A stretch of 64,000 nucleotides of DNA from Saccharopolyspora rhizosphaerae. Lineage in GTDB: Bacteria; Actinomycetota; Actinomycetes; Mycobacteriales; Pseudonocardiaceae. Shown here in pieces: positions 28,252 through 53,729 of the stretch (positions within the stretch are counted from its first letter, which is position 1; the number at the start of each line of letters is the position of its first letter). A program made the translations under genes and the position numbers. The DNA lies in contig NZ_RSAA01000008.1 of NCBI RefSeq assembly GCF_003931915.1, positions 186,001-250,000 of the forward strand, read 5' to 3'. The notes beneath the pieces were generated by a model. It was not told the DNA's origin, searched no databases, and saw only the letters and a program-made list of their open reading frames with translations.

Positions 28252-28327
28252 GCCCCCGTAGCCCAACGGCAGAGGCAGCGGACTCAAAATCCGTCCAGTG
28301 TGCGTTCGAATCGCACCGGGGGCACCA
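28252..28327 (+). tRNA. tRNA with anticodon CAA (Leu), integration site
   Basis: Cloverleaf: acceptor GCCCCCG/CGGGGGC, anticodon arm GCGGA-CTCAAAA-TCCGT with anticodon CAA, short variable loop of about five bases, T arm GTGCG/TTCGAAT/CGCAC, discriminator A and encoded CCA. CAA reads the Leu codon UUG, and A73 fits Leu. Odd point: normal bacterial tRNA-Leu has a long variable arm, which is absent here. A -10-like TATGCT is at 28233-28238. The 3' 45 bases are duplicated at the far end of the mobile element. Confidence 0.88.
28281..28325 (+). repeat. Left attachment core (attL)
   Basis: 45 bases from the anticodon stem of the tRNA to the first C of its CCA are identical to 53601-53645. The repeat restores the 3' part of the tRNA, so the gene stays intact after integration. 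Confidence 0.93.
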
Positions 28328-28375
28328 GCCTTCACCAGGCAAAACAACCGAATATGTGGATCATGGAAATGATCC

Positions 28376-28397
28376 TGGGTGCGGCCTTGGGTGCGAG
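28376..28397 (+). promoter_or_regulatory. Candidate integrase arm-type sites, left
   Basis: Two copies of TGGGTGCG start at 28376 and 28388, 12 bases apart, between the attachment core and int. The same pair with the same 12-base spacing is at 53489 and 53501, inside the other end, in the same orientation. In the circular form they would flank the core, as arm sites of tyrosine integrases do. Confidence 0.55.
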
Positions 28398-28410
28398 TAC
28401 ACTCAAGGCC

Positions 28411-29661
28411 ATGAGTCGTTCACACCCCGATGAACGTCAGCGCGGCCGCATCGAGGAGCGCAGCAAGACGCTCCGGGTAGTCGTCTTCGCCGGCAACGAC
28501 CCCGTGACCGGTCGCCGCACCTACCTCCGCGAGACGATCAACGGCACGGACAAGGCCGCCTACAAGCGCGCCGAGAAGGCGCTCACCAAGCTGCTGGCAC
28601 AGGTCGACAGCCAGCGTTCCACCCCGTCGACGGTGAGCCTGTCCTTCGCCCTGGACGAGTGGATGCGCACCAGCGAGATCGAGGACAGCACCCGGCACAC
28701 CTACAGCGGCTACATCGACCGCTCGATCAAGCCCGCTCTCGGCGAGACTGCGGTGAACAAGATTTCCGCGAGGATGCTCGAGGGCTTCTACACCGAGCTT
28801 CGACGCTGCCGCGCTCGCTGCGACGGCAAGCCCTACATCGAGAAGCACAAGAAGCCAGGCGAGCACGACTGCGTCGCCGAGGAATGCCGTCCACACGCGT
28901 GCAAGCCGATGGCTACCTCAACAGTCCGCCAAATCCACGCAATCATCAGCGGCACCCTCGACGCCGCAGAACGCTGGGACTGGATCAGCTCCAACCCAGC
29001 CCGCGTCGCACGGAAACCGCGCCAGAAACGCCCAGAACCCGACCCGCCGACTCCCGCCGAGGCAGCGCGGCTGTCCGAGGAAGCGTTCCGGATGGACGAG
29101 GACTGGGGCACGCTCGTCTGGCTCGCCATGACCACCGGCATGCGCCGCGGAGAACTCGTCGGTCTGCGCTTCTCCCGCGTCGACCTCGATGAGGAAGTCA
29201 TCGACCTTCGCCGTAACTGGGTCCGCGGCAAGGAGAAGGACACCAAGACCCACCAGAACCGCCGCATCGCCCTCGACTCGGAAACGGTCACCCTGCTCCG
29301 CGAACACCGCGACCGCGTCGCCGACCGAGTCCGAGACCTAGGCGGCAAGTTCAACGACGACCTCTACGTTTTCGCCGGCACCCAACACCCCGACCACACC
29401 CAGCCCTACTCCCCCAACGCCATAACCCAGCGCTACAAGGACATGGCCGACCGGCTGGGCATCAAAACCCACCTCCACGCCCTACGCCACTACTCCGCCA
29501 CCGAACTCCTCACCGCAGGCATCGACCTCCCCACAGTCTCCGGCCGTCTCGGACATGGCGGCGGAGGCGCCACCACGCTCCGCGTCTACGCGGCCTGGGT
29601 CGCAGCCTCGGATCGCAAAGCAGCGGAGATCTTGGGGAGTCGCATGCCGAGGCGAAGATGA
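28411..29661 (+). CDS. int: Tyrosine recombinase/integrase
   Basis: 416 aa from ATG 28411; the longer frame runs back through the tRNA and is not coding. The N-terminal arm-binding region is followed by a core-binding SAM-like domain (about 75-200) with a Cys/His-rich insertion at about 130-170, and the catalytic domain. Catalytic residues are Arg245 (TTGMRRGEL), His356 and Arg359 (HLHALRHY), His382 (GHGGGG) and Tyr393 (LRVYAAW). It integrates the element into the tRNA and, with Xis, excises it. It reads away from the attachment core. A decayed copy with about 90 percent identical DNA lies beyond the right core. Confidence 0.95.
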   Translation: MSRSHPDERQRGRIEERSKTLRVVVFAGNDPVTGRRTYLRETINGTDKAAYKRAEKALTKLLAQVDSQRSTPSTVSLSFALDEWMRTSEIEDSTRHTYSGYIDRSIKPALGETAVNKISARMLEGFYTELRRCRARCDGKPYIEKHKKPGEHDCVAEECRPHACKPMATSTVRQIHAIISGTLDAAERWDWISSNPARVARKPRQKRPEPDPPTPAEAARLSEEAFRMDEDWGTLVWLAMTTGMRRGELVGLRFSRVDLDEEVIDLRRNWVRGKEKDTKTHQNRRIALDSETVTLLREHRDRVADRVRDLGGKFNDDLYVFAGTQHPDHTQPYSPNAITQRYKDMADRLGIKTHLHALRHYSATELLTAGIDLPTVSGRLGHGGGGATTLRVYAAWVAASDRKAAEILGSRMPRRR

Positions 29662-29703: not shown

Positions 29704-30354
29704 CTAGTTTGCTGCTGCACGCCCAATCACGATTAACGCTCCTACCCATGAAGAGAATCTACTAACACCTCCCGGGAGGCGAGCCCGTAAGCTCCTCTGA
29801 GTATCTCCCGTATCCGCCCAAAACTGCCCCACCTCCCGTAGGTTATTGTGATTTTTATGCGCTATAAAATTTCGGACAGTCTGCAGTTCAGGTATAGGAT
29901 TGGCGATATCAATCCCATTCTCCGAACGTATGGAAGAAATCGTGACGGCGCCAACCACAGCCGGACTATTTCCAAGCTGTAGCACCCTGCAAAGATCGGG
30001 GACTGCGTCAATCGAATACCATGGAGGCTCACCCTTTACAACGTTTGCGCGAATATTCTTCTTCTTTTTCTCGAGTTGAATCTGCAAGAGCGAGTCAGAT
30101 TCGCTGCGCGACTGCATTGGCCGGTAAACCCGTCCAGACAATCCTTCGCATGGCCCTTTGGCGGACGACAACAAGAGAGAACGCATGAAGCGGTTCCACG
30201 CGTCCCACACTGAAATAACGCACCCGTCTTCAACGGCGCCGTATCGGATGGAGAAGCCGCTTACACAATCATGCCCATCAGCCTCTTCGAATACTTTCTC
30301 TATCTCGCGAAGTTCGCGTTCAAACTCATCGACCACTTCTCGCAAGGAACTCAC
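29704..30354 (-). CDS. Putative HEPN-domain protein paired with DUF262 gene
   Basis: 216 aa from GTG 30354, nine bases after the DUF262 gene on the same strand, so one operon. No family is certain. The C-terminal part has ELQTVRNFIAHKN with Arg161, Asn162 and His166 in the R-N-x3-H arrangement of HEPN ribonucleases, followed by a helical tail. A basic patch EKKKKN is at about 95-100. HEPN proteins often act as RNA-cleaving toxins. Base composition is much lower in GC than the rest of the element, suggesting recent acquisition. It is probably the effector of a two-gene defence or toxin-antitoxin unit; this is inference. Confidence 0.6.
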   Translation of the reverse strand: MSSLREVVDEFERELREIEKVFEEADGHDCVSGFSIRYGAVEDGCVISVWDAWNRFMRSLLLSSAKGPCEGLSGRVYRPMQSRSESDSLLQIQLEKKKKNIRANVVKGEPPWYSIDAVPDLCRVLQLGNSPAVVGAVTISSIRSENGIDIANPIPELQTVRNFIAHKNHNNLREVGQFWADTGDTQRSLRARLPGGVSRFSSWVGALIVIGRAAAN

Positions 30355-30363
30355 AAGTACACA

Positions 30364-31425
30364 TCACCTTGCACTCAACGCCTGATAGAAGTACTCAAAT
30401 CGAACTTGCCTGCTTTTCATGCGTTGCGTAGATGATCGCGCAGCCTCAACAAAGTGGATATAGGGATTATTCCCGTCCTCGTCCTCTGAGTTTCCTTGGA
30501 GCGCTGCGTTCAGTTTCGAGATTTGGTCAACAGTCGCCATTTCGTCTAGCGGAGCATTCGGAACTGGCGGAAAGTCGCTCGAATCTATCCGCCCTGGCGC
30601 CACGTCGCCGCGCATATACGCCAACGTCGCCAGAAGGATAAGGAAATGGGGTCGCTGGACAATTCGTTCCGATTTGAATTGCCCAAGAAGATCGACCACC
30701 TCGCTGATATAGCCTTCAACCTTCTTCTGGTCAGGCAGTTCAGATGCGGTAGCCGATTTCATCCGCTCGTAGAATTTCGTGATTCGAGACTCTCCTCCGT
30801 CACCGATCCCATCAACAAAGAATATGTAAATTTCAGCAATGAGGGAGTGGTCGTTCATCCGCACACGATCCCGCTGAGAAACCGGATTCAGAGACCAAAG
30901 CGACTTAGCGTTGGATACTGTGGATTTAACGAGGCCAGCGAACTCGGTATCAAATCGAGCATTCCTCAACTCAGGCTCATTGACGGGGACAGTGTAAGAA
31001 TTGATTCGGGCGAATACTTCCAGTACGTCATCGTCTGATGCATTCATTAGCTGCTCCGAAGTCAACCTATAGCTAAGGAAGCGGTCCTGCAGCTCCTCAC
31101 TCAAATCGGCATAGCGACAACCAGCGAATTCACCAGCCTTTCCCCCAAGGGGGAATTTCCCATTTGCGAAATCAATAATTGTCCGCAGTCGCTGTTGGCC
31201 GTCGACCACATCCCGTATAGTTCGCTTTAGTTCCCTGTCGATTCGTGTCCGCATAAGAATCTTCGGTATGGGATAACCGCGCAAAATCGAATCGATAAGA
31301 TATGTACGCGCAGCCGAAACCCACACTGAGCCGCGCTGAAACTTCGGGTTCAGCTCAAGCTCTTTGTCATGCGCCCACTTAAGAAAGTCAGCGATAGGGT
31401 AGTGCTCCGGGTTGCTACCTTCCAC
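30364..31425 (-). CDS. DUF262 (ParB/Srx-fold NTPase-like) protein
   Basis: 353 aa from GTG 31425, which has GGAGG four bases upstream; TTG 31455 would add ten residues. The N-terminal 200 residues fit DUF262: LNPKFQRGSVW near residue 26, YLIDSILRGYPIPKI, and the signature VVDGQQRLRTIIDF with DGQQR at 75-79. DUF262 proteins such as GmrS and the N-part of SspE bind or hydrolyse nucleotides and sense DNA modification in phage defence. The HNH (DUF1524) nuclease half found in GmrSD and SspE is absent; the HEPN-like gene follows instead. The region is low in GC. Confidence 0.82.
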   Translation of the reverse strand: MEGSNPEHYPIADFLKWAHDKELELNPKFQRGSVWVSAARTYLIDSILRGYPIPKILMRTRIDRELKRTIRDVVDGQQRLRTIIDFANGKFPLGGKAGEFAGCRYADLSEELQDRFLSYRLTSEQLMNASDDDVLEVFARINSYTVPVNEPELRNARFDTEFAGLVKSTVSNAKSLWSLNPVSQRDRVRMNDHSLIAEIYIFFVDGIGDGGESRITKFYERMKSATASELPDQKKVEGYISEVVDLLGQFKSERIVQRPHFLILLATLAYMRGDVAPGRIDSSDFPPVPNAPLDEMATVDQISKLNAALQGNSEDEDGNNPYIHFVEAARSSTQRMKSRQVRFEYFYQALSAR

Positions 31426-31594: not shown

Positions 31595-32182
31595 GTGAGC
31601 ACTGAGCGCGGAGCTTGGAAGACGTACGGGGAACGGCTGGTCTACGACAACCGGTGGGTTCGGTTGGGGTTGGCTGACGTGGAGGCGCCGAACGGTGAGC
31701 GGTGGGAGTACCACGTCGTTCACCTGGCTCGGATCGCGATCGCTCTGATCGTGGACGAGCAGGACCGGGCGCTGATGCTGTGGCGCTACCGGTTCCCGAC
31801 CCAGCAGTGGGGTTACGAACTGCTTGGTGGCTTGGTCGACGACGGTGACGACTCAGCTGGAACCGCCGCTCGCGAAGCCGCTGAGGAGAGCGGTTGGGAG
31901 CCGGTCGGCGAGGGTCAGCACCTGGTGACCTTCGAGCCTCTGCCTGGACAGGTCACCGCCCCGGTGGACGTCTACTTGTGGCGTGGGGCGAAGCACATCG
32001 GTGATCCGACCGACACCGAGGAAGTCGGCCAGGTCGAGTGGGTTCCGCTATCTCGGGTTACCGAACTGGCGCAGCGGCAGGAGCTGCTCGGTTCGGGAAC
32101 CCTGGTGGCGCTGCTGTACTTCCTCGCTTCACGCAACATCCTCGGTGGAACCGGGCAAGATCAGCCCGCCGAGCCGGCGTAG
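31595..32182 (+). CDS. NUDIX hydrolase, possible Pif-like exclusion factor
   Basis: 195 aa from GTG 31595. The NUDIX box is at residues 78-101 (GGLVDDGDDSAG, then AAREAAEESGW); the catalytic REAAEE part is intact but the early conserved Glu is Asp. The fold resembles ADP-ribose pyrophosphatases. In the AICE pSAM2 the NUDIX protein Pif blocks redundant transfer between cells already carrying the element, and the catalytic box is required. A similar role is plausible but inferred. About 50 bases of a second copy survive in the dead element at 54211. Its end overlaps the convergent regulator gene by 54 bases. Confidence 0.82.
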   Translation: MSTERGAWKTYGERLVYDNRWVRLGLADVEAPNGERWEYHVVHLARIAIALIVDEQDRALMLWRYRFPTQQWGYELLGGLVDDGDDSAGTAAREAAEESGWEPVGEGQHLVTFEPLPGQVTAPVDVYLWRGAKHIGDPTDTEEVGQVEWVPLSRVTELAQRQELLGSGTLVALLYFLASRNILGGTGQDQPAEPA

Positions 32183-33262
32183 GTGTCGGTCTGACTTGAT
32201 CTGAGAAGCCAGCCGCCGCGCTTGCCTGGAGTGGTCAAGCGCGGCGTCGCGGTCTCCGGCGGCAGCGAACGCCAGAGCCAGGTCGACGAGAAGCCCTGTG
32301 CGCGCCCGCACGAACTGCGCAGGTACGCACGGTAGCGCTTCGACGAGCTGGTCGATCGCCTCTGGCTCGCCTAGCTTGCTCAGGGCGTTGCCGCGCCAGC
32401 GGTCGAGGTGCGAGCCACCCAGGAAAAGGAACGGCAGCGCGGCGTCGACCGGCTCGGATGGCAACAACGCATCTGCCACGTCGAACGCCCGCAATGCACC
32501 GTCGCGGTCGCCAACGGCGGCCAGTCCCTCTCCGTGAGCCGCGGACAGCCATGCTCGCAGCAGCGGCGGTGCCGACCCCTCCGCGACCTCACAGGCGTAC
32601 GCGAGCTGCTCGACGGCCGAGGCGGTCTCGCCGACGTCGATCAAGACGAACGCCTGCTCCGCCGCGGCGTGTGCCAGCAAGGCCGGAGCCATGGCCTCGC
32701 GGGCCGCTGATTTCGCGCGTTCGTAGTGCTCCCACGCCTGCCCGAGAGCGTTCCGGTCCAGCGCTTCCCAGCCCGCCAATGTGGACGCCTCGGTGAGCGC
32801 ACCGGCGAGCCTTTCCCGTTGGCTGCCAATGGTGTTGTAGCTGAGCAGGTCTTCGACCTGCTTGATGGTGCTGCGGAGCTGGTCGAGCAGTGTGATCCCG
32901 CCGAAGCGGCGGTCGACGTGTCTCGCATCGTTGATCTGCCGCAGGAAGACCTCGACCGTGTCCGCGTCCACGGTCTTCGCCATCGCCAGCCTCGACCGCA
33001 GCTCCGCGGCGTCGCTGTCCTCGGCCTCCGGAGGAAAGCCGAGTTCTTCGTTGGTGCGGCCGTAGATGTCGCGGAACAGCCGCTGATAGGTCTCGCTAAC
33101 GGCTTCGTGCCCGTTCTCCCAGCGGGAGAGCTTCGTCTTCAGGCTCGCCGCCGTCATCACCGGGACGCCGAGGGTGTCGGCGCGTTTGAGAAGCATGCGA
33201 ATGACAGCCTCGGCCGAGTAACCGAGCTGCTTGCGGACCGCCTGAAGTCGCTTCTCCTCCAT
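32129..33262 (-). CDS. HTH regulator with C-terminal TPR-like domain (paralogue 1)
   Basis: 377 aa from ATG 33262, with GGTGGGGG upstream; GTG 33274 is four codons earlier. The N-terminus carries a helix-turn-helix (about 30-55, TAASLKTKLSRWENGHEAVS). From about 120 it is a helical repeat domain (LAGWEALDRNALGQAWEHY, HAAAEQAFVLIDVGETASA, PPLLRAWLSAAHGEGLAA). It is clearly paralogous to the regulator at 42388, which shares these blocks. XRE-TPR regulators often respond to peptides or small signals and control mobile elements. Tandem GCGGTTAA repeats lie just upstream. Confidence 0.78.
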   Translation of the reverse strand: MEEKRLQAVRKQLGYSAEAVIRMLLKRADTLGVPVMTAASLKTKLSRWENGHEAVSETYQRLFRDIYGRTNEELGFPPEAEDSDAAELRSRLAMAKTVDADTVEVFLRQINDARHVDRRFGGITLLDQLRSTIKQVEDLLSYNTIGSQRERLAGALTEASTLAGWEALDRNALGQAWEHYERAKSAAREAMAPALLAHAAAEQAFVLIDVGETASAVEQLAYACEVAEGSAPPLLRAWLSAAHGEGLAAVGDRDGALRAFDVADALLPSEPVDAALPFLFLGGSHLDRWRGNALSKLGEPEAIDQLVEALPCVPAQFVRARTGLLVDLALAFAAAGDRDAALDHSRQARRLASQIKSDRHLRRLGGLILPGSTEDVA

Positions 33263-33307
33263 CACCGCCCCCACCTTGAATAACGGTCCTGACCTGCGAA
33301 GTTAATT

Positions 33308-33330
33308 GCGGTTAATGGATTCGCGGTTAA
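33308..33330. promoter_or_regulatory. Tandem GCGGTTAA repeats upstream of regulator paralogue 1
   Basis: GCGGTTAA at 33308-33315 and 33323-33330, 15 bases apart, about 45 bases before the regulator start. A third AGTTAATT is adjacent. They are candidate operator or promoter elements for autoregulation. Confidence 0.4.
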
Positions 33331-33439
33331 CCCGCGCCATCTGCAAAAACTTCCGCGGATGCCGTTTCTTGGTGGCATGCGCAGCACGAACGCAACCACC
33401 AGCCCGCCACTGCGGCGGGCCGTCGAGGACCAGAGCCGG

Positions 33440-33823
33440 CTACCCCGCCCGCTCGCCGTCACTTCCGGTTCCAGCGCGCAGTCGAGCGTTCATCTCGTCG
33501 AGTTGGCGGGTGATCTGGCCAAGCTGGCGCTCGATGGCCGAGAGCCTGGAGGGCACGTCGTCCTCTTTGAACACCGGCTCGCCGGCCAGGGGCGGCTCAC
33601 GCCCTCCCAGCACTGCCAACAGATGTTCCGGGTGCCAGCCGAGCGCGAGCGACAGCGCTTCCAAAGTTCGCGCGCTGCGGCGTCGCTGCACCGTGTTGCG
33701 CTGCAACTCGCGCACCGTCGCCTGCGACACGTGCGAGCGCCGCGACAGCTCCCGCTGACGCATGCCCAGCTCGCTCGTGCGCTGATTGATCGCGCGCGCG
33801 ACCGCAGCCCAGTCTTCCGTCAC
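33440..33823 (-). CDS. XRE-family HTH regulator
   Basis: 127 aa from GTG 33823 with GGAGGA four bases upstream. Residues 5-70 form a Cro/CI-type helix-turn-helix (GMRQRELSRRSHVSQATVRELQR). The C-terminal part (SRLSAIERQLGQITRQLDEMNARLR, about 90-115) is a short coiled coil, probably for dimerisation. It is divergent from xis across about 170 bases that hold two ATTAGCGC copies, so it probably represses the xis-traB operon. The target is inferred from position. Confidence 0.8.
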   Translation of the reverse strand: MTEDWAAVARAINQRTSELGMRQRELSRRSHVSQATVRELQRNTVQRRRSARTLEALSLALGWHPEHLLAVLGGREPPLAGEPVFKEDDVPSRLSAIERQLGQITRQLDEMNARLRAGTGSDGERAG

Positions 33824-33855
33824 GTGTTCCTCCGCGCTCCGCCTCAGCGCCGAGA

Positions 33856-33933
33856 TTAGCGCGCAGTAGCGAATCCGAAAGGCAGACCCGGCTCACGAAT
33901 CGCCGGGCTTCGACCAATCTGCGCAATTAGCGC
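33856..33933. promoter_or_regulatory. Control region between XRE regulator and xis
   Basis: ATTAGCGC occurs at 33856-33863 and 33926-33933; the second copy is part of the dyad GCGCAATTAGCGC. The pair lies in the divergent region between the XRE regulator and xis and is a candidate operator for that regulator. Confidence 0.45.
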
Positions 33934-33996
33934 TGAAATTGGCGTTTGAATGCGCCGAAACAATCTCTTTCCTCTTCAATCGAAGGGCATACCGCC

Positions 33997-34272
33997 ATGG
34001 AAACAAGCGCTGAAAACGCGCGGCCGACCTTCTACACGGTCCGTGAAGCCGCGCAGATCATGCGATGCAATCCCTCGACCCTCTACCGAGCCATCCGCGA
34101 AGGTGCGTTCCCCTCAGTTCGGGTCCGCACTCGCTACGTCGTCCCCGCCGCAGCGGTGGACAAGCTCGCCAACGAGGCCAGCACCTCGGGCGGCTGCGTT
34201 GACGTCGCCCAGATGGCCGCTGAGCACCGCACCGCTCAGGAGATCGCTCGGCTGACGGGTGGTGCGCGATGA
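33997..34272 (+). CDS. xis: Excisionase-type HTH protein
   Basis: 91 aa from ATG 33997, preceded by GAAGGG; the frame extends 17 codons upstream without need. A MerR/excisionase-like winged helix at residues 10-55 (FYTVREAAQIMRCNPSTLYRAI, then YVVPAAAVDKL) is typical of AICE Xis proteins. Xis directs the integrase towards excision. It is first in an operon in which almost every gene overlaps the next: whiB starts inside its stop. It is some 4 kb from int rather than adjacent to it. Confidence 0.82.
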   Translation: METSAENARPTFYTVREAAQIMRCNPSTLYRAIREGAFPSVRVRTRYVVPAAAVDKLANEASTSGGCVDVAQMAAEHRTAQEIARLTGGAR

Positions 34273-34652
34273 ACCACCTCGACATCGAACGACTCCAGCG
34301 AATCGCCGCACAGCTGGATCGCTTGCGGCACGTCCCCACCGATGTGCTCGCCGAGGTCGTCGTGCGCGACGGCAGGTGCATGCAAATCACAACAGACGAG
34401 GAACCGCCGGAATCTGCCAGCGCGGACCCGGATCGGCAGCTCGCGGCCGATCTGTGCACGGGCTGCACCGTCCAGGACGCATGCCTGGAGCTCGAATTCC
34501 GGTTGCACGGCGGACGAACGCTCGGCGTGTGGGGAGCAATGCCCGATCAGGACCGACGAGCGCTCTACCCGATCTGGTTGGCGCATCGACAGCACGGACC
34601 AACGAGCAACGAGGAGGTGACCGGCGATGAGGGTGCAACTGACGCCCGTTGA
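34269..34652 (+). CDS. WhiB-family iron-sulfur regulator
   Basis: 127 aa, start overlapping the xis stop (ATGA). Four cysteines, Cys37, Cys63, Cys66 and Cys72 (GRC, then CTGCTVQDAC), have the Wbl spacing for a 4Fe-4S cluster; GVWGAMPDQDRR supplies the beta-turn motif, here GVWGA rather than GVWGG. Wbl proteins bind sigma factors and regulate development, redox responses and resistance. Its place between xis and traB suggests that it ties transfer to host state. Wbl genes occur on several actinomycete elements and phages. Confidence 0.87.
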   Translation: MNHLDIERLQRIAAQLDRLRHVPTDVLAEVVVRDGRCMQITTDEEPPESASADPDRQLAADLCTGCTVQDACLELEFRLHGGRTLGVWGAMPDQDRRALYPIWLAHRQHGPTSNEEVTGDEGATDAR

Positions 34653-34956: not shown

Positions 34957-35681
34957 TCGGGCAGGTTCCGCCTCCGGCGAAGGGTGGGCGGCAGCTGCCG
35001 CCCACCCGGGCCGAGGCCGAGCACGTCGAACAGGTTCGCAAGCAGGTCGACCGCTTGTGCTGGACGGGCATCCTGCTCGGCCTGGCCTTCACGATGACCT
35101 ACGTCCAGCAGTTCGCCGCCGCTGACTCGCCACCGTTGTCGCTGGTGTGGTTGGCGGCGTGGCTGCTCGACCCGATGGTGTCGCTGGTGCTCTTGGCGAT
35201 CCTGCGCGCCGAGCAGGTCACCGCGAGGTACGGCATCCGCACCGGTGGCTGGGTGCGTGCTGCGAAGTGGTTCACGCTCGCGGCCACGTACGTCATGAAC
35301 ACCTGGGCCGCATACGCGGCCGGCGAGGCCGACTCGGTGGTTCTGCACTCCGTGCCTCCACTGGTCGTGTTCGTCGCGGCCGAGGCCGTGACCGATCTGC
35401 GGGACAAGCTCAGCGAGGCCGTCCGGACAGCGTTCACGAACGCAGCGGCTGGCTCGCCCGACCAAGCTCCCCATGACCGCGAGCGGCCGACGCCCCAATC
35501 AAGCGTCAAGCGACGGACGTCGTTCGAGGAGTACCTGGAGCGGGCGCGCAGCGCGTGGAGCCCGGACGTGACGGTGTCGCCGTCGTGGATTCGGGAGGCA
35601 ACTGGCTGCTCGCGTGGACTCTCGTCGCGGTTGGCCGCCGCGCTCGCAGCTGAAGTGGACGGGGGAGGTGGTCCGCGATGA
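34953..35681 (+). CDS. Membrane protein with C-terminal cytoplasmic domain (DUF2637/SpdB-like)
   Basis: 242 aa from ATG 34953, which overlaps the previous stop; the longer frame upstream overlaps other genes. Four membrane helices lie within residues 35-145, followed by a soluble C-terminal domain containing a helical segment (SPSWIREATGCSRGLSSRLAAAL) that resembles a small helix-turn-helix. This layout is like DUF2637/SpdB proteins of Streptomyces elements, which bind DNA and TraB and help intramycelial spread. The stop overlaps the traB start. Confidence 0.6.
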   Translation: MIGQVPPPAKGGRQLPPTRAEAEHVEQVRKQVDRLCWTGILLGLAFTMTYVQQFAAADSPPLSLVWLAAWLLDPMVSLVLLAILRAEQVTARYGIRTGGWVRAAKWFTLAATYVMNTWAAYAAGEADSVVLHSVPPLVVFVAAEAVTDLRDKLSEAVRTAFTNAAAGSPDQAPHDRERPTPQSSVKRRTSFEEYLERARSAWSPDVTVSPSWIREATGCSRGLSSRLAAALAAEVDGGGGPR

Positions 35682-37804
35682 ACGAGCAGGGCGAACCGCT
35701 CCCGGTACCACGGCCATCGAGCGAAGTTGAATCCGCGATCTTCGACGCTGAGCTCGTGGACGATGCGGCGTCGGTCCCGAAGCTGACGCGATGGCAGCGG
35801 TTCATGAACTGGTGGCAGCGTTCACCACGCGTGCCTACCGCACTCAAGTCACGAAAGGCCGCCAAGCAGGCCCTCCTGGATCTCCTTCTGTTCGTCGTAC
35901 ACCTCCCGTGGCGGTTCGTCAGCGCTGCCGGCCGCGGGACGGTCGCCGCGGTGCGTGCTTGGCGTCGGTGGGTCCGGGTTCACGACTACCGGGACGCCGC
36001 GGAGCAGTCCGAGAAGCTCGTGGACAAGTTCATCGAGATCCGAGAGCTGACCCTGTTCCGGTGGAAGGTGACCGGAACAGCCGGGTTGGCTTCCGCCGCC
36101 GTCCTGGTGGTCGCGTACGTCCTGTACGGCGCACCAGCTCTGTGGGCTGCGGGAGGCCTGGCGGCCGCGTCCTTGGCAATCTTCGGACGCCGCAAGGAGG
36201 GATCACCGGGCCGGAAGCCCGTGCTGTCCGGCCCCCGCAGTCTGACCTGGACGATGGATCCGCAAGTCCTGGTCGAAGCGTTCCGCGATGCCAAGCTGAT
36301 CGGCAAGGACGAGTCCCTGCGCCTGGTCGAAAGGGCTGCGCACGACGGCTCGGGCTGGGCGGTCACCGTCGACCTGCCAGCGACGCGCAAGGCAGCGGAC
36401 GTCATCAAGCACAGGGAAGCTCTCGCATCAGCGCTTGCAGTCGATGAGTTGCAGCTCATCATCGAACGAGTTCGAGGCTGCGGCGGGCACGCCGGTCGTG
36501 TCTTCCTGTGGGTCGCCGACGCCGACCCGTACGCAGGGCCTCCGATGCGATTCCCGCTCCTAGACGTCGAGCAGTGGGACGCGTGGCGAGCGATCCCGTT
36601 CGGGCGCGATGCTCGCAACCGCCGCGTCGACCTGCAGCTCGTGTGGACATCGTTGCTGATCGGCGCGATTCCCCGGCAGGGCAAAACCTTCTCGACCCGA
36701 CTGCCTGCTGCAGGGTTGATCCTCGACCCGCACGCAAGGCTGTACGTCTTCGACGGCAAGGGAGGTAAGGACTGGGAAGCCGCGGAGGCCGTCGCGCACC
36801 GGTTCGTCTGCGGTGACGAGATCGAACACGTCGAGGCCGTTCGCGATCACCTCGTGGAGCTGGTGGCAGAAGTCCAATCCCGCTACGCGCGGATGTCCAG
36901 GCTTGATGACGACATCTGCCCGGAATCGAAGATCACCCCGGCAATCTCCCGGGACACCGACCTCGACATGCCGATCACGGCCGTGGTCATCGACGAGGTG
37001 CAGGTGTACCTGGAGAACCCTGCCCGCGAAGACATCGGCGGCAAGAAGAGCACCATCGGCGCCTACATCGCAGACCTGCTCACCTACCTCACGAGGAAAG
37101 GTCCGGCCGTGGGCATCGTGGTCATCCTCGCCACCCAGCGCCCCGACTCGAACACGATCCCGTCCCGGTTGCGCGCGGTGCTCGGTTCGCGATTCGCCTT
37201 GCGGGTCATGGACTGGCGTGATTCCAACATCGTGCTCGGCGAGCAGATGAACACCCGGGGTTTTGATGCCTCGACGCTGCTCCCGAGCCACAAAGGGGTC
37301 GGCATCTTGCGACCGGACAGCGAAACCGGCGCGGACACCATCGCCACGTTGGTCCGCACGTTCTTCATGCCGAACCCAGAATGGCGAACCATCTGCGGCC
37401 GCGGAAGAGCTCTGCGCGAGGCAGCCGGAACGTTGACCGGCCATGCCGCTGGTGATGACCTGCAACGGGCAGTCGACCCAACGGCAGTGGCCAAGGCGCT
37501 CGGCAGCAGCTCCGAGGTTCTGGACGACCGCTCAGCACTGCCAGAACCTCTGTCGTCGGTCGTCGACTACCTGGGAGACGACATCGACCGGCGCGATTTC
37601 GTACCGACGGCCGAGCTCATCGACGCACTCGACTCCGAACCGACCTTGTTCGGCCGGCAGATGGGCGAGCTCGGCTGTCAGCCAAGACGCGCCCGCGTCG
37701 CTTCCGAAGACGGCACCGTGCGCCAGGTCCGCGGCTACTACACCGCGGACCTCCGGAAAGCAGTGGACGAGGCCCACACGGCCCAGGAGAAGGAAGGCGA
37801 ATAG
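35678..37804 (+). CDS. traB: FtsK/SpoIIIE-type conjugal DNA translocase (TraB)
   Basis: 708 aa from ATG 35678. The N-terminal cytosolic part is followed by two membrane helices near 132-170 and a RecA-like motor: Walker A GAIPRQGKT at about 329-337 and Walker B AVVIDEVQVYL at about 434, then VVILATQRPDSNTIPSRLR, typical of FtsK/TraB proteins. The C-terminal 90 residues (about 600-700) fit a winged helix for DNA recognition. In AICEs a single TraB hexamer transfers double-stranded DNA by recognising short repeats (clt), and such repeats occur just downstream. It is the last gene of the xis operon. Confidence 0.92.
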   Translation: MNEQGEPLPVPRPSSEVESAIFDAELVDDAASVPKLTRWQRFMNWWQRSPRVPTALKSRKAAKQALLDLLLFVVHLPWRFVSAAGRGTVAAVRAWRRWVRVHDYRDAAEQSEKLVDKFIEIRELTLFRWKVTGTAGLASAAVLVVAYVLYGAPALWAAGGLAAASLAIFGRRKEGSPGRKPVLSGPRSLTWTMDPQVLVEAFRDAKLIGKDESLRLVERAAHDGSGWAVTVDLPATRKAADVIKHREALASALAVDELQLIIERVRGCGGHAGRVFLWVADADPYAGPPMRFPLLDVEQWDAWRAIPFGRDARNRRVDLQLVWTSLLIGAIPRQGKTFSTRLPAAGLILDPHARLYVFDGKGGKDWEAAEAVAHRFVCGDEIEHVEAVRDHLVELVAEVQSRYARMSRLDDDICPESKITPAISRDTDLDMPITAVVIDEVQVYLENPAREDIGGKKSTIGAYIADLLTYLTRKGPAVGIVVILATQRPDSNTIPSRLRAVLGSRFALRVMDWRDSNIVLGEQMNTRGFDASTLLPSHKGVGILRPDSETGADTIATLVRTFFMPNPEWRTICGRGRALREAAGTLTGHAAGDDLQRAVDPTAVAKALGSSSEVLDDRSALPEPLSSVVDYLGDDIDRRDFVPTAELIDALDSEPTLFGRQMGELGCQPRRARVASEDGTVRQVRGYYTADLRKAVDEAHTAQEKEGE

Positions 37805-46450: not shown

Positions 46451-46897
46451 ATGAACGTCAAGCGACCTCAACAAGTCGATCCGGTAGTCAGCAACCGGAT
46501 GAGCCGTGTGCGCGGTCGCGACACCAAGCCGGAAATCGCCATACGGTCCGAACTTCATCGGCGGGGCCTCAGGTTTCGGGTGCATCAGCGTCCCATCGAG
46601 TCCTTTCGTCGCACGGCCGACATCGTGTTTCGACCAGCCATGGTGGCCGTCATGATCGACGGGTGTTACTGGCACGGATGTCCCGACCACTATCGACCTT
46701 CGACGAAGAATTCGGCCTTCTGGCAGGAAAAGATCGCATTGAACCTCAAGCGTGACCAGGAGACGAACGAGGCCCTACAAGAGGCGGGGTGGCTGGTTCT
46801 GCGATTTTGGGAGCATGAAAGCCCCGTCAGCGTTTCGGACCGAATTCAGGAGTTGGTCACGGATCGGCGCGCGAGCCGTCGACATGAGAGGCGATAA
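46451..46897 (+). CDS. vsr: Very short patch repair endonuclease (Vsr)
   Basis: 148 aa from ATG 46451. The Vsr fold is clear: SRVRGRDTKPEIAIRSELHRRG near the N-terminus, the metal site ADIVFRPAMVAVMIDGCYWHGCPDH at about 57-81 (catalytic Asp, zinc-binding Cys/His), and GWLVLRFWEHE near 112. Vsr nicks at T:G mismatches arising from deaminated 5-methylcytosine. Its usual partner, a C5 cytosine methyltransferase, is encoded 325 bases away on the other strand. Its last 41 bases overlap, tail to tail, the 121 aa gene. It may repair or be a nuclease of the restriction set. Confidence 0.92.
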   Translation: MNVKRPQQVDPVVSNRMSRVRGRDTKPEIAIRSELHRRGLRFRVHQRPIESFRRTADIVFRPAMVAVMIDGCYWHGCPDHYRPSTKNSAFWQEKIALNLKRDQETNEALQEAGWLVLRFWEHESPVSVSDRIQELVTDRRASRRHERR

Positions 46898-47222
46898 TTT
46901 CTTTATCGCGTACAATCTGCCATGCCTGCCGAAGATTTTCCTCGCGCGTATCACGGGTGACCTCGCCAACGTATTTGACGCTGGTCTCCCCATCGCATGA
47001 GTAGCGGAGGTTCGCATAGATTCTACGTCTATTCGGCTGTCGTTTAAGCTCGATCGACGCACGTACCTCTCGACCATCAGGGAGGACCACCAGCCGGGCG
47101 TTGCGCCCACCAGCAGCACGATCTTGTTCCAACGCCAAGTCGCGGGCCGAGCGTCTTCCTTGCGAAATCGGCTTCCAAGCTCGCTCATCCGGAACTTCAT
47201 GCCGCCAGAGTGGATGTGCCAT
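46857..47222 (-). CDS. Small protein of the methyltransferase/MORC operon, unknown
   Basis: 121 aa from ATG 47222, which shares one base with the stop of the methyltransferase gene, so the two are coupled. A basic N-terminal half (HEVPDERAWKPISQGRRSARDLALEQDR) is followed by a strand-rich half (ARLVVLPDGREVRASIELKRQ, then RRIYANLRYSCDGETSVKYVGEV). No known family. As the last gene of the operon it may be a small DNA-binding or specificity subunit. The convergent overlap with vsr is unusual. Confidence 0.65.
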   Translation of the reverse strand: MAHPLWRHEVPDERAWKPISQGRRSARDLALEQDRAAGGRNARLVVLPDGREVRASIELKRQPNRRRIYANLRYSCDGETSVKYVGEVTRDTREENLRQAWQIVRDKEIIASHVDGSRADP

Positions 47223-48541
47223 CACCCCGCCCAATTGATGTCGAGATCTGGTCGAAGCGCTCGCGCGACCGCTTTGGCGAATATCGCCCCGAGATCGACC
47301 GGAACGGCATTGCCCAACTGACGCATCTGTTCACCACGGGGACCGGCGAATCGCCACGTGTCAGGAAAGGTCATCACTCTAGCCGCTTCGCGGACGGTCA
47401 TGTAGCGGTGAGATCCATTGTCCTCCAGAAGCACGGTCTCTCCGCCGGGAACGCCATGCACGCCAGCCTTGACCGTCTTGGCTGGGCGATCAAGAAGATT
47501 CGGGGTATGCCCCTTATAGATCCGCGCCCCCGGCCACCCGATATGGTGGTGGTAACCTTTTAGCTCCTCGCCCACAATCGGCTTCGGTAGGTCGCCGATG
47601 GCGTCGCGCAAGGTAACCCATGGCTTTTTCCCATCGTCGGTAACATGCCGACGACGAGCACGCTCAATGAGTTCATCGTTCGGCGCTAATCCTCGTTTCT
47701 TCCAATAGCTACCGTCGAGTTGACTAATAAACAACGCCGTCTCACTGTGCTGTTTTCTTGGCTCCTTCCAGTCCACTGCAAGATCCTTGCGAAACGCAAC
47801 GATGATGACTCGTTGCCTGATCTGCGGAACACCGTAGTCTGCGGCGTTCACAGGTATCGGCAGTACCTCGTAACGCTGGGTGAGATCACTACCTTCCTTC
47901 TTGAGGGCTCGACGAAGACGGGCGTCGTGTTCGTACCACGGCTCGCCCTCTTTGCGCTCTTCAAACGGAGCGCGCAGCTCGTTCAGGATGTACTCGAAAT
48001 AGGGCGCGAACGACGGCCTCAGCAGACCGCGAACGTTCTCGCACAAGATCGCTTTGGGCCGTGTCTCCCGGACGACCGCGAAAAGCTCCGGAAACATGTT
48101 CCGTTCGTCCTCGTGGCCCTTCGCGACGCCCCCCAGACTGAAGGGCTGGCAGGGTGGGCCGCCAGCCACGACATCTACCTTCTCGACCAGACCTTTGAAT
48201 ACTTCATCATTTATGGCCGTACGGATGTCATTCTCGATCAGCGGCCACGGCGAATTCAGTGCCTCCGGAACCAGGTCTCCCGTCTTCCAGTCCTTGGCCC
48301 CGTTAAGACGAAGAGTCTCGCAAGCACGCTTGGCCACCTCGTTGGTGAGCAGATGACGAAATCCGGCGCGGTGCATTCCCTGAGCGAGCCCGCCGCCACC
48401 AGCGAACAGCTCGATGCTGGTCCCCACCTCGCGGTGCATCGAACTCGCGCTGATGGGCACCGTGTCGTCGGAGGTCTTGACGTCGAACAGGGTGTCGGTT
48501 ACCTGAGGCACCTGGTGACTGTACCGCGGAGGGGTGATCAT
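47222..48541 (-). CDS. dcm: C5 cytosine DNA methyltransferase (Dcm type)
   Basis: 439 aa from ATG 48541; this start has no clear ribosome-binding site and an internal GTG is possible. All main motifs are present: I ELFAGGGG (about 44), IV GGPPCQPFS with catalytic Cys131, VI ENVRG, VIII QIRQRV and X GNAVP near the C-terminus. The target recognition region lies between VIII and X. It methylates cytosine C5 in a sequence that cannot be predicted. It follows the 200 aa gene by 35 bases and is coupled to the 121 aa gene. In this operon it should protect host DNA. Confidence 0.93.
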   Translation of the reverse strand: MITPPRYSHQVPQVTDTLFDVKTSDDTVPISASSMHREVGTSIELFAGGGGLAQGMHRAGFRHLLTNEVAKRACETLRLNGAKDWKTGDLVPEALNSPWPLIENDIRTAINDEVFKGLVEKVDVVAGGPPCQPFSLGGVAKGHEDERNMFPELFAVVRETRPKAILCENVRGLLRPSFAPYFEYILNELRAPFEERKEGEPWYEHDARLRRALKKEGSDLTQRYEVLPIPVNAADYGVPQIRQRVIIVAFRKDLAVDWKEPRKQHSETALFISQLDGSYWKKRGLAPNDELIERARRRHVTDDGKKPWVTLRDAIGDLPKPIVGEELKGYHHHIGWPGARIYKGHTPNLLDRPAKTVKAGVHGVPGGETVLLEDNGSHRYMTVREAARVMTFPDTWRFAGPRGEQMRQLGNAVPVDLGAIFAKAVARALRPDLDINWAG

Positions 48542-48576
48542 GCTTCGAAGGCGCGCCGAGGGGCCGGCTGTTGGAG

Positions 48577-49179
48577 TCACAGCTCGATGTGCTCCACCTG
48601 GAGCTGGCAACGCTGGACAATGCGTCTGTGCAGTGCCTTCGTGTCGGCGGCTACGGGCTTCTCGAAGGTCTCGGTCACCGCTAACACCCACGAGCGGTGG
48701 TCGTCCGACTCGACGGCCTCTAACGCAGCCCACAGAAGATGCTTGAAGTTTTCGGAACTAGCCCAGGCAATGATGCGCGCATCGACTTCCTCACCATGGA
48801 AGGGTGGATGGACCACCATCCGCATCGGTTTCTCGGTAATGGAGTCTGGATCGGGGATCCAACCGGGAAGCGTCAGCCTGACGATCTTCTCGGCGAGCTG
48901 TTGCCGTTCTGCGGCGGGATCGTGGCTCCCTCCCAGCAAGCGAGCGTAGGGGCCATGACCGATCTTGGCGCGAGGCCACTCTTTGACCGGTCCGTCCTTG
49001 ATCCAGTGACGGGGATCGTCCTTGAAGTTCGCGATGATAGCCCCAATCTCGGAATCGTTGTTCCAAAGATCGTATTGTCGGGACCTATCACGAGCACTCA
49101 GTTCGTCCCAGTCAATCGAGCGCATATCGGCATAGATACGGCGGACAACACGGTCACGCACGTCCCTGGGAAGTGACAT
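48577..49179 (-). CDS. Unknown 200 aa protein between helicase and methyltransferase
   Basis: 200 aa from ATG 49179, four bases after the helicase stop. No known domain. It starts with a helical part (RDVRDRVVRRIYADMRSIDWDEL), has a basic/aromatic centre (PRHWIKDGPVKEWPRAKIGHGPYARLLGG) and a mixed alpha/beta C-terminal half (MRMVVHPPFHGEEVDARIIAWAS). Several His, Asp and Lys residues in GHGPYARLLGG could be functional. Its fixed place in a tight operon argues for an essential part of the system. Confidence 0.7.
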   Translation of the reverse strand: MSLPRDVRDRVVRRIYADMRSIDWDELSARDRSRQYDLWNNDSEIGAIIANFKDDPRHWIKDGPVKEWPRAKIGHGPYARLLGGSHDPAAERQQLAEKIVRLTLPGWIPDPDSITEKPMRMVVHPPFHGEEVDARIIAWASSENFKHLLWAALEAVESDDHRSWVLAVTETFEKPVAADTKALHRRIVQRCQLQVEHIEL

Positions 49180-49183
49180 AAGT

Positions 49184-50854
49184 TTAGTTCACGCTCGCTG
49201 ATACGTCGGGGAATTGCAGGTGGACCTCATCGGCGGAGGTCTCCAGGTCAGCAGCATCGCGTATCCATTGATCGAGCAGCGAGCCCACCGAGGCATCAGT
49301 GAATTCAATCTTGTTTCCCCTGGCAAGGGGAAGGTTGAGCGTTTCGGTATCACCGACGTTGAGAGACCGGCGCAGCCGGAGCGCAGCGGCGACACGGCGG
49401 ATGTCGGAGACGAAGTCAAGGGCGAGCAAGGATTCCTTGCCATCCCGCAACCTCAAACCGCGGCCCAGCTGCTGAACGAAGATCCGGCGGCTGTGCGTGA
49501 CGCGAAGGAAGGCGATGATGTTGACATCCGGGACGTCGACTCCCTCGTTGAACACGTCTACGGTCGTCAGGATTGGGACACGCCCCAACCGGAACGAATT
49601 CAGAAGGATCTGTCGATGTTGCTTGGGGACGCCGCTGTGTAGTGCTGCGGCGCGCGCCCAGGCCGGATCGGAGGAGGCGAGGAGTTCAGCCATGCGCTCA
49701 GCATGCTCGATCGTCTGACAAAAGACGATTCCGCGGGGCTCGTGGATACCTCGCCACGCCTCTCGCAGGTAGTCAATTACGACCTCGTCTCGTTGCGGCA
49801 GGAAGAGTTTGCTGTTCAGCTCCCGAATCGTGTGGCCCTGCCGACTGGCCGCCGCGACAAAGTCCCAGTCCAGATCGTCTACGAAAAGACGATAATCGAC
49901 CTTGACGAGATGGCCTTCACGCATCCCCTCCTCGATGCCCATCGTGAAGCTGGCAGCGCCGAAGTGGTCCTCGATATCGAATTTGTCGCCTCGCCATGGG
50001 GTCGCCGTGACACCGAATTGCAGTGCTCCGGCACAAGCTTCGAGCAGCATCTGATACATACCCGCAGCACCGACATGATGTGTCTCGTCAATCATGATCA
50101 GGTTCGGCTTGTAACCGTCAGCAACCAGGCCGAGCGCGGAATCTATGGTCGCGCAGGTAACGCCGTCGAACGCGGTGGGCTTCCGCTCGCTGGTCAAAAC
50201 CTGCGTCGAGACTGTTTTGGGCAAGTGCCGCCACAAAGATCGTTCTAGTTGTTCGACCAGTTCGCGCATGTGCGCTACGACGAGGATTCGATCGTGTGGG
50301 TGCTCGTCGAGGTGTTGGCGGATGACTTCCCCACCGACCATGGTCTTGCCGAGCCCGGTAGCAAGGACCAGCAGCGCGCGTTGGCGCTGGGCGAGATCCT
50401 CCCTCAGTCTTGTGATAGCGCGCTTTTGATACTTCCTGGGCCGTAGTCGTGATGGCACATCGGTCGACATCCGCTCGCCGATTGAAGCCAAAGTCTTACC
50501 GTTCCATACGTCGATCTTGATTCCGACGTCGTCAAGGATCTTTCGTCGACTCTCCGCGCCCCGGCTGAGCGCTCCGTTCGTGGCGAGCACGCACTTGTCA
50601 GCCTCGTAGCGGGTCTTAGCGCGCTCGCAATCGTCGATGCCAACACGATCAATGGTGCCTCGACTCGTCCACTTGGACTGGACGACCCACTGCTGACCGT
50701 TCCGAACAGCCAGTAGGTCAGCTCCTCCATCATCACGGCCATCCACTACCCGCACGTCAACAAAGCCTAGGTGCCACAGTGCCCGTTCCAGCGCATGGGT
50801 CAGACCCCGCGGACCGTCGGCCAAGAGCTTTCGAGAATCCAGGAAATTGGTCAT
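49184..50854 (-). CDS. Mrr-type nuclease fused to SF2 helicase
   Basis: 556 aa from ATG 50854, overlapping the stop of the GHKL gene. Residues 15-115 are an Mrr-like restriction endonuclease domain: GADLLAV with Asp46, then QSKW with Gln59 and Lys61, the QxK variant of PD-(D/E)xK. Residues 135-530 are a superfamily 2 helicase: Walker A TGLGKT (about 166-171), DETH (256-259), GVTATPWR and QLGRGLR. Such fusions are typical of ATP-dependent restriction. With the GHKL ATPase it probably forms the translocating and cutting engine. Confidence 0.88.
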   Translation of the reverse strand: MTNFLDSRKLLADGPRGLTHALERALWHLGFVDVRVVDGRDDGGADLLAVRNGQQWVVQSKWTSRGTIDRVGIDDCERAKTRYEADKCVLATNGALSRGAESRRKILDDVGIKIDVWNGKTLASIGERMSTDVPSRLRPRKYQKRAITRLREDLAQRQRALLVLATGLGKTMVGGEVIRQHLDEHPHDRILVVAHMRELVEQLERSLWRHLPKTVSTQVLTSERKPTAFDGVTCATIDSALGLVADGYKPNLIMIDETHHVGAAGMYQMLLEACAGALQFGVTATPWRGDKFDIEDHFGAASFTMGIEEGMREGHLVKVDYRLFVDDLDWDFVAAASRQGHTIRELNSKLFLPQRDEVVIDYLREAWRGIHEPRGIVFCQTIEHAERMAELLASSDPAWARAAALHSGVPKQHRQILLNSFRLGRVPILTTVDVFNEGVDVPDVNIIAFLRVTHSRRIFVQQLGRGLRLRDGKESLLALDFVSDIRRVAAALRLRRSLNVGDTETLNLPLARGNKIEFTDASVGSLLDQWIRDAADLETSADEVHLQFPDVSASVN

Positions 50855-53600: not shown

Positions 53601-53645
53601 GACTCAAAATCCGTCCAGTGTGCGTTCGAATCGCACCGGGGGCAC
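53601..53645 (+). repeat. Right attachment core (attR)
   Basis: 45-base exact copy of 28281-28325 (3' part of the tRNA). The bases before it do not continue the tRNA; the bases after it continue the similarity to the left side for about 40 more bases and then into a decayed integrase. Confidence 0.93.
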
Positions 53646-53729
53646 GAGCCTTCACCAGGCAAAACAACAGAACATGTGGATCATGGTGTTGGTCCTGTGT
53701 GCGGCCCCGGGGGCGGGTACCTCAAGACC

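Follow-up and report, generated by a model that had tools for sequence, protein, structure and literature searches.

A low-GC gene pair within an integrative element

The window, the whole 64-kb stretch of DNA analysed here, contains two adjacent genes on its reverse strand. Gene A (30364..31425 (-), GTG start), the first of the pair, encodes a 353-aa DUF262 protein (GmrSD_N, ParB/Srx-like) in which no HNH domain was found, and gene B (29704..30354 (-), GTG start), the second, encodes a 216-aa protein of HEPN type that belongs to no database family. An earlier note, made from the sequence alone, had described two genes nine bases apart beside an integrase, strikingly lower in GC than their neighbours, with DGQQR in the first and R-N-x3-H near the end of the second, and each of these observations is borne out. 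The gap between A and B is 9 nt (30355-30363). The DGQQR motif (31189..31203 (-)) occupies residues 75-79 of A and is the sole DGQQR among the 192 stop-to-stop frames of at least 150 aa in the window, and the second motif is RNFIAH, residues 161-166 of B (29857..29874 (-)). The GC content of the pair is 51.1% (GC3 53-55%), whereas the window as a whole has 66.3% and six other measured genes have 66-70% (GC3 78-96%), and the lowest-GC 1.7-kb segments of the 64 kb (sliding, 100-base steps) are those of the pair. A promoter scan found none, with 1.3 expected in shuffles.

The pair lies within an integrative element of ~25.4 kb whose attachment site is a tRNA-Leu (CAA) gene (28252..28327 (+)). An exact-repeat search gave a left attachment repeat (28281..28348 (+)) made up of 45 bp, one mismatch and 22 bp, matched by a right attachment repeat (53601..53668 (+)). 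Between these repeats the pair is flanked by a NUDIX gene and a tyrosine integrase (28357..29661 (+); PF00589, E 5.5e-20), the start codon of the latter being approximate, with the frame open from 28234. An Rfam scan of the element detected the tRNA only. An FtsK/TraB-like open frame at 35678-37804, named by eye, would be consistent with an integrative conjugative element of the actinomycete kind. A regulatory cluster (32129-34652) separates the pair from the transfer genes and comprises a TPR/HTH-like protein, a Cro/C1 repressor, an excisionase-like HTH_17 protein and a WhiB-like frame assigned by eye. None of the genes immediately next to the pair in the window is a phage-defence gene. A second defence block (46451-53178) occupies the opposite end of the element and comprises Vsr (46451-46897 (+)), a C5-cytosine methylase (47222-48733 (-)), an Mrr-catalytic/ResIII helicase (49184-50854 (-)) and a GHKL ATPase (50851-53178 (-)) with a weak MzaB match (E 0.00068).

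A DUF262 protein without a detected nuclease domain

Protein A matches PF03235 (GmrSD_N) with 81.1 bits against a curated cut-off of 33.2 (E 1.6e-22). The three motifs QR (Q30, R31), DGQQR (D75-R79) and FxxxN (F138/N142), whose names we take from PMC12137116, are all invariant in the nine A proteins of the family described below. A Pfam search of all 353 residues, with E allowed up to 1, found no DUF1524 or HNH match.

Structural models of A and B were each built from 8 sequences, with each protein alone. For the A model (pLDDT 82.7, pTM 0.61) the best fold match is BrxU (Foldseek E 2.9e-4; VIA Z 9.5, rmsd 11.0 over 275 residues), and the alignment spans only residues 1-422 of the 580-residue BrxU chain. 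This large rmsd shows that the domains of A are arranged differently from those of BrxU. SspE comes next (VIA Z 8.2, rmsd 3.5, 135 residues), followed by ParB and Srx folds over approximately residues 1-145. When the A profile was searched against PDB sequences, BrxU was reached at E 0.038 with no stretch passing by itself, and the best PADLOC profile for A is NsnA. Protein A is a DUF262 fold without a detected nuclease domain; the earlier note had read it as a DUF262 protein lacking HNH, which agrees with the absence of any HNH or DUF1524 hit by Pfam or by fold match.

A HEPN-like protein outside the named HEPN families

The window B protein has no match in Pfam, PADLOC or NCBIfam, and for three B proteins tried against PHROGs there was nothing below E 0.05. 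None of the nine B members scores above cut-off with the curated Pfam HEPN models and none matches in PADLOC; the member from L016 reaches Abi_2 at E 0.017, which is below cut-off.

The nine B proteins share a mean identity of 29%, and their invariant positions besides Met1 are W50, W53, E109, P110, W112, N129, R161, N162, A165, H166 and W203. An acid is conserved at position 43 (D/E43, 9/9; helix 2) and at position 184. E109, P110 and W112 form an EPxW signature (30019..30030 (-)) in an insert between helices 2 and 3 that is a hallmark of the family, and R161, N162, A165 and H166 belong to the proposed HEPN Rx4H catalytic motif, RNFIAH. The loose pattern R[ND]x3H is weak evidence by itself because it is present in 14 of the 192 window frames; RNxxAH occurs in only one of the 192, and its conservation in all nine family members places it beyond chance.

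HEPN proteins are expected to carry an Rx4-6H motif at the end of helix 3 and an acid in helix 2 (PMC3710099). The B model (pLDDT 80.6, pTM 0.80) contains helices 4-25, 38-66, 153-165 and 197-215 around the insert, and RNFIAH closes the third of them. Based on this predicted model and the alignment of nine members, B has the HEPN layout of four helices with the motif ending helix 3 and the acid in helix 2, and its RNxxAH fits Rx4-6H with a polar residue after the arginine (9/9). Structure prediction of the 216-aa protein, the check that the earlier note had proposed for its suggestion of a HEPN-like second gene, thus gives a HEPN-type four-helix arrangement.

By themselves the fold searches do not settle this assignment. 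Of the top seven VIA rows for the B model (Z 8.2-9.0, rmsd 4.0-4.9, 124-135 residues), three name a HEPN toxin in their titles and two name MntA together with its toxin; the other two are 7bxo, whose title says just toxin-antitoxin, and 5yep chain B, both of which we take to be HEPN/MNT. SipD follows directly at Z 7.7, and a Z of 8-9 is within the chance range for helical bundles. The best Foldseek row is the unrelated IpaD (E 0.88), ahead of the best HEPN row (E 1.8). A BFVD fold search gave an uncharacterised protein at best (E 0.21), and a search of PDB sequences using the B profile gave at best a ribosomal silencing factor (E 0.073). Since B is a helical bundle and the leading Foldseek values are of this order, the fold would be weak evidence for HEPN if taken in isolation.

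A strong link was obtained by comparing profiles. A second group of proteins, 204-264 aa in length with R[ND]xxAH, is encoded downstream of other DUF262 genes (L004, L005, L007, L071-L073). Alignment of the B profile with that of this group using hhalign gave a probability of 95.9, E 5.4e-9 and a score of 64.8 over 195 columns, with RNxxAH aligned on the motif, compared with a best score of 18.1 in 100 column shuffles and 13.2 for reversed columns. The link is robust: with any one of the six second-group members left out, E is 2.4e-7 or better, and on the B side the window and Planotetraspora proteins alone give E 7.7e-7 and the other seven B proteins E 1.2e-6. One second-group member has weak matches to PF18735 (E 0.085) and PD-T4-2_B (E 0.048), and another to PF18731 (E 0.049) and PF18735 (E 0.31).

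No corresponding alignment beyond the motif was found when B was compared with the HEPN proteins of PF18735 or PF18737 type that accompany other DUF262 proteins. Against PF18735-type partners, hhalign gave non-significant values of E 0.078 for a first set and 0.0099 for a second (probabilities 0.7 and 4%); the first set included L083, a PF18735 match with no adjacent DUF262 seen, which was dropped from the second, in which L084, L097 and L098 were included. Two phage partners (L096, L099) aligned at E 0.23 on the motif alone. Mainly because of the conserved motif and the profile link to the second HEPN-like group, we assign B to the HEPN type. B is HEPN-like by motif, layout and this strong link, and it is outside the named HEPN families.

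Conservation and distribution of the pair

The pair reported in the earlier note is a conserved unit. In all nine loci that have this type of A and retain the downstream DNA, ranging from actinobacteria to a prophage of E. coli, A is followed by B, with spacings of -35 to +9 nt when starts are predicted from the longest frame. These loci are the window, Planotetraspora (L002), E. coli phage vB_EcoM-689R6 (L003) and the IMG/VR loci L011-L016; L017/L064 was excluded as its contig ends right after A, and L063 and L065-L069 are repeats of counted contigs. Identity to the window proteins is 56% for A and 37% for B in Planotetraspora, and 26% and 22%, respectively, in the E. coli phage. The distances among A proteins and among B proteins are correlated (r 0.938), a value reached in 2 of 5000 permutations. 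In six comparisons among the phage loci L003 and L013-L016, pS is saturated (0.80-0.89) whereas pN is 0.10-0.36, and so both genes are under protein constraint there. Thus, A and B co-diverge under protein constraint.

The pair resides in mobile elements. Tyrosine integrases are present in five of seven pair-bearing phage records; in L013 there is instead a serine recombinase at a distance of 0.8 kb from the pair, and the L016 record is a fragment of 4.2 kb. The E. coli version of the pair is located in a prophage between intE and icd (int-A-B-icd) and occurs in 9 of 5426 E. coli genomes. Both genes are annotated in eight of these nine; in H68, where the stretch is one base longer, only A is listed. 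In E. coli RM7190 (L100:10771-15088), for example, the order is integrase, DUF262 gene, gene for a 216-aa protein annotated as hypothetical, and icd. Approximately 0.6 kb downstream of the Planotetraspora pair is a caspase-like open frame recognised by eye (L002:7258-8760), perhaps another defence gene.

Most relatives of B were reached through A rather than through B itself. Sequence searches with B alone gave no match in plasmids and phages and one locus in a collection of genome contigs, a search that detects close relatives only. No second genome with a B of the window branch was found among 297 genomes of the family (searched with a single protein), 396 of the phylum or 397 of the order (both searched with an alignment), and the window branch therefore looks rare.

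Other partners of DUF262 proteins

DUF262 proteins were also seen beside several other, unlike candidate effectors in a survey that was selective, the first plasmid and phage regions being 8 chosen from 60 rows. DUF262 adjoins PF18735 in 4 of 12 sampled PF18735 loci (L084, L086, L089, L093) and also on two plasmids where the partner is annotated 'HEPN domain-containing protein'. In L096, a DUF262 gene is upstream of a MAE_28990-type HEPN gene (PF18737, E 7.6e-18), and a cytosine methylase adjoins. Among 12 other A-like loci from the phylum search of 396 genomes, three are followed by a HEPN-like frame, one by a RelA/SpoT-like frame and eight by no recognised partner.

A RelA/SpoT-like protein (PF04607) follows DUF262 at L075:301-1293 (-), with a Vsr-like open frame nearby, and may be a toxin of the small-alarmone or a related type that DUF262 controls. 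L010 resembles L075 by eye, with a short second gene that has no Pfam match and then an IS5 transposase; its RelA/SpoT-like label in the tree was likewise assigned by eye. A cyanobacterium and Asticcacaulis carry plasmids (L008:2501-4745, L009:2501-4643) on which the DUF262 gene overlaps a protein kinase gene by 8 bases.

The tree of A proteins groups the partner types, with 5 changes compared with a minimum of 4 and a mean of 12.4 after shuffling. The A proteins with a PF18735 HEPN partner form a separate, fully supported branch (4 rows). The tree neither supports nor contradicts a single origin of those carrying the B described here (two changes on the tree; one change in 15% of bootstrap trees), and the same holds for a joining of the window/Planotetraspora and prophage branches.

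Proposed function and alternatives

In BrxU, SspE, GmrSD and Dazbog, DUF262 is associated with the binding and hydrolysis of NTPs and links the recognised DNA state to an effector (PMC10952713). We propose, with a probability of roughly 0.6, that the pair is an anti-phage module of mobile elements in which a DUF262 NTP-driven sensor is joined to a HEPN ribonuclease effector; we infer an RNase activity of B, sensing of DNA and NTPs, a direction of control between the two proteins, and protection. Protein A would be an NTP-binding and NTP-hydrolysing sensor-regulator, thought to recognise the state of invading DNA, and B a metal-independent endoribonuclease that is kept quiet by A or depends on it. 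Upon infection, A would change state on NTP turnover and B would be released or switched on; active B would then cut RNA, and phage production would stop, probably with arrest of cell growth. By analogy with PD-T4-2, the pair could have an abortive-infection or toxin-antitoxin role.

Several alternatives were weighed against this proposal. The pair could be a plain toxin-antitoxin (addiction) module that stabilises its mobile element, in which B acts constitutively as an RNase toxin and A is the antitoxin that binds it directly, phage sensing playing no part. Two small adjacent genes beside a recombinase, as in the window, L003 and L013, would suit such a module, and among the top VIA matches of B are toxins from HEPN/MNT pairs. 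However, the large regulator comes first, and the DUF262 motifs are invariant in all nine members, a degree of conservation beyond what an antitoxin requires; the DUF262 systems related to it (GmrSD, BrxU, SspE, PD-T4-2, Menshen and Dazbog) are moreover defence systems (PMC10952713). Because of the invariant motifs, we favour activation on infection over plain addiction, and we regard an addiction module as unlikely.

The pair could instead guard a restriction-modification system, with A monitoring C5-cytosine methylation or its loss and B arresting the cell when restriction is blocked. The model for such a role is PrrC, which guards a type I enzyme. A C5-methylase is present in three of the seven pair-bearing phage records (L011, L014, L015) as well as in the second defence block of the window element. 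Vsr adjoins it in L011, L015 and the window element, methylase and Vsr being 0.8-3.2 kb from the pair in the two phage records (L011:6221-8397, L015:6485-8051), and L011 also carries an NgoMIV-type restriction enzyme. This frequency compares with 4 of 33 controls (Fisher p 0.088, or 0.033 if the window element is included), the controls being DUF262-bearing virus records without this B (L018-L050) that differ in size and kind; they are 33 of 45 loci with DUF262 and no recognised B (L018-L062) that served as controls only. The L003 record, in contrast, has no C5-methylase, and a guard function seems to us very improbable. C5-methylases that share the element or record with the pair (window, L011, L014, L015) speak against generic 5-methylcytosine as the trigger, although their excess over the control records is weak. 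Sensing it in the context of the pair's own methylase would fire the sensor on its own host, which limits what the DUF262 protein may recognise.

A non-catalytic B, serving as a DNA- or partner-binding helical subunit that makes A a nuclease-like restriction complex, would accommodate the facts that ParB-like proteins have been called nucleases (PMC3710099) and that the most distinctive feature of B, the EPxW insert, is not a known catalytic site, but the HEPN-motif R, N and H and the upstream acid are kept in 9/9 members despite the low mean identity, and the chance of this is similarly slim.

Returning to the sensor-effector module, we tentatively extend it to a wider possibility, one that we would not yet call probable: HNH-less DUF262 proteins of ~350 aa may be a general alarm switch with interchangeable dormancy effectors. 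These effectors would include at least two HEPN-type sets that are unjoined by profiles (the PF18735/PF18737 type, and the two linked groups including the window family), a RelA/SpoT-like protein and protein kinases. In that case the window family would be an undescribed HEPN branch whose sensor is tuned to a signal that the neighbouring C5-methylase must not trigger. The family adds a HEPN-type branch missed by the libraries searched (Pfam, PADLOC, NCBIfam and PHROG). Because the int-A-B-icd prophage carries the same architecture, both the DUF262 signal and the way in which DUF262 drives a separate effector become testable in E. coli.

Comparison with known systems

GmrSD, BrxU and SspE, the type IV enzymes, share with A the DUF262 sensor-NTPase fold and motifs. 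Unlike them, A has no detected DUF1524/HNH, and its proposed effector is a separate HEPN-type protein. The ptuXYZ candidate defence locus, in which a DUF262 protein is combined with a BECR-type RNase in a three-gene arrangement (PMC11980606), resembles the pair in that a DUF262 protein lacking DUF1524 shares an operon with an RNase-type toxin, but its three genes include a PtuA-like ATPase, and its RNase has a BECR/YoeB fold, not HEPN. HEPN/MNT (HepT-MntA) is likewise a two-gene unit with a HEPN effector and leads the VIA rows for B, whereas the partner A is a DUF262 protein and not a nucleotidyltransferase.

RiboL-PSP-HEPN and MAE_28990 HEPN genes have been described in operons with ParB genes, some with a DNA methylase (Anantharaman et al. 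2013; PMC3710099). As in those operons, of which L096 is a case, the HEPN gene here adjoins a ParB-superfamily gene; none of the nine B members, however, matches either Pfam model, and B carries an EPxW insert of its own. For the 20 DUF262 clusters most common in Enterobacteria, a survey describes single-gene and two-DUF262-gene systems, and its main text does not mention HEPN (PMC12373910). Among the top matches listed in the open-licence literature, judged by title and opening of the abstract, there was no description of a DUF262 and HEPN-like pair of the window type.

The closest counterpart is PD-T4-2 (Vassallo et al. 2022), which consists of DUF262 and HEPN (PF18735) components (PMC10952713) and whose deletion from ECOR65 greatly raised T4 plaquing (PMC9519451). 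The window A matches PD-T4-2_A with E 9.8e-21. This match is partial (residues 11-248 of A, 40-283 of the 363-position profile), whereas PF18735-paired A proteins reach the profile end with E 7e-42 to 2e-56 (4/4: L084, L086, L093, L098). The window B has no PD-T4-2_B or PF18735 match at E up to 1, a result to be read with the fact that four of five PF18735-type partners (L084, L086, L093, L098) miss PD-T4-2_B as well, the fifth, L097, matching at E 0.0079. The PF18735 partners seen are also shorter, at 155-180 aa compared with 215-222 aa in the B family. The pairing of DUF262 with HEPN is already in print (PMC10952713, PMC3710099), and the best reading is that the present pair, which fails the PD-T4-2_B and PF18735 tests yet would work like PD-T4-2, is an unrecognised branch of it.
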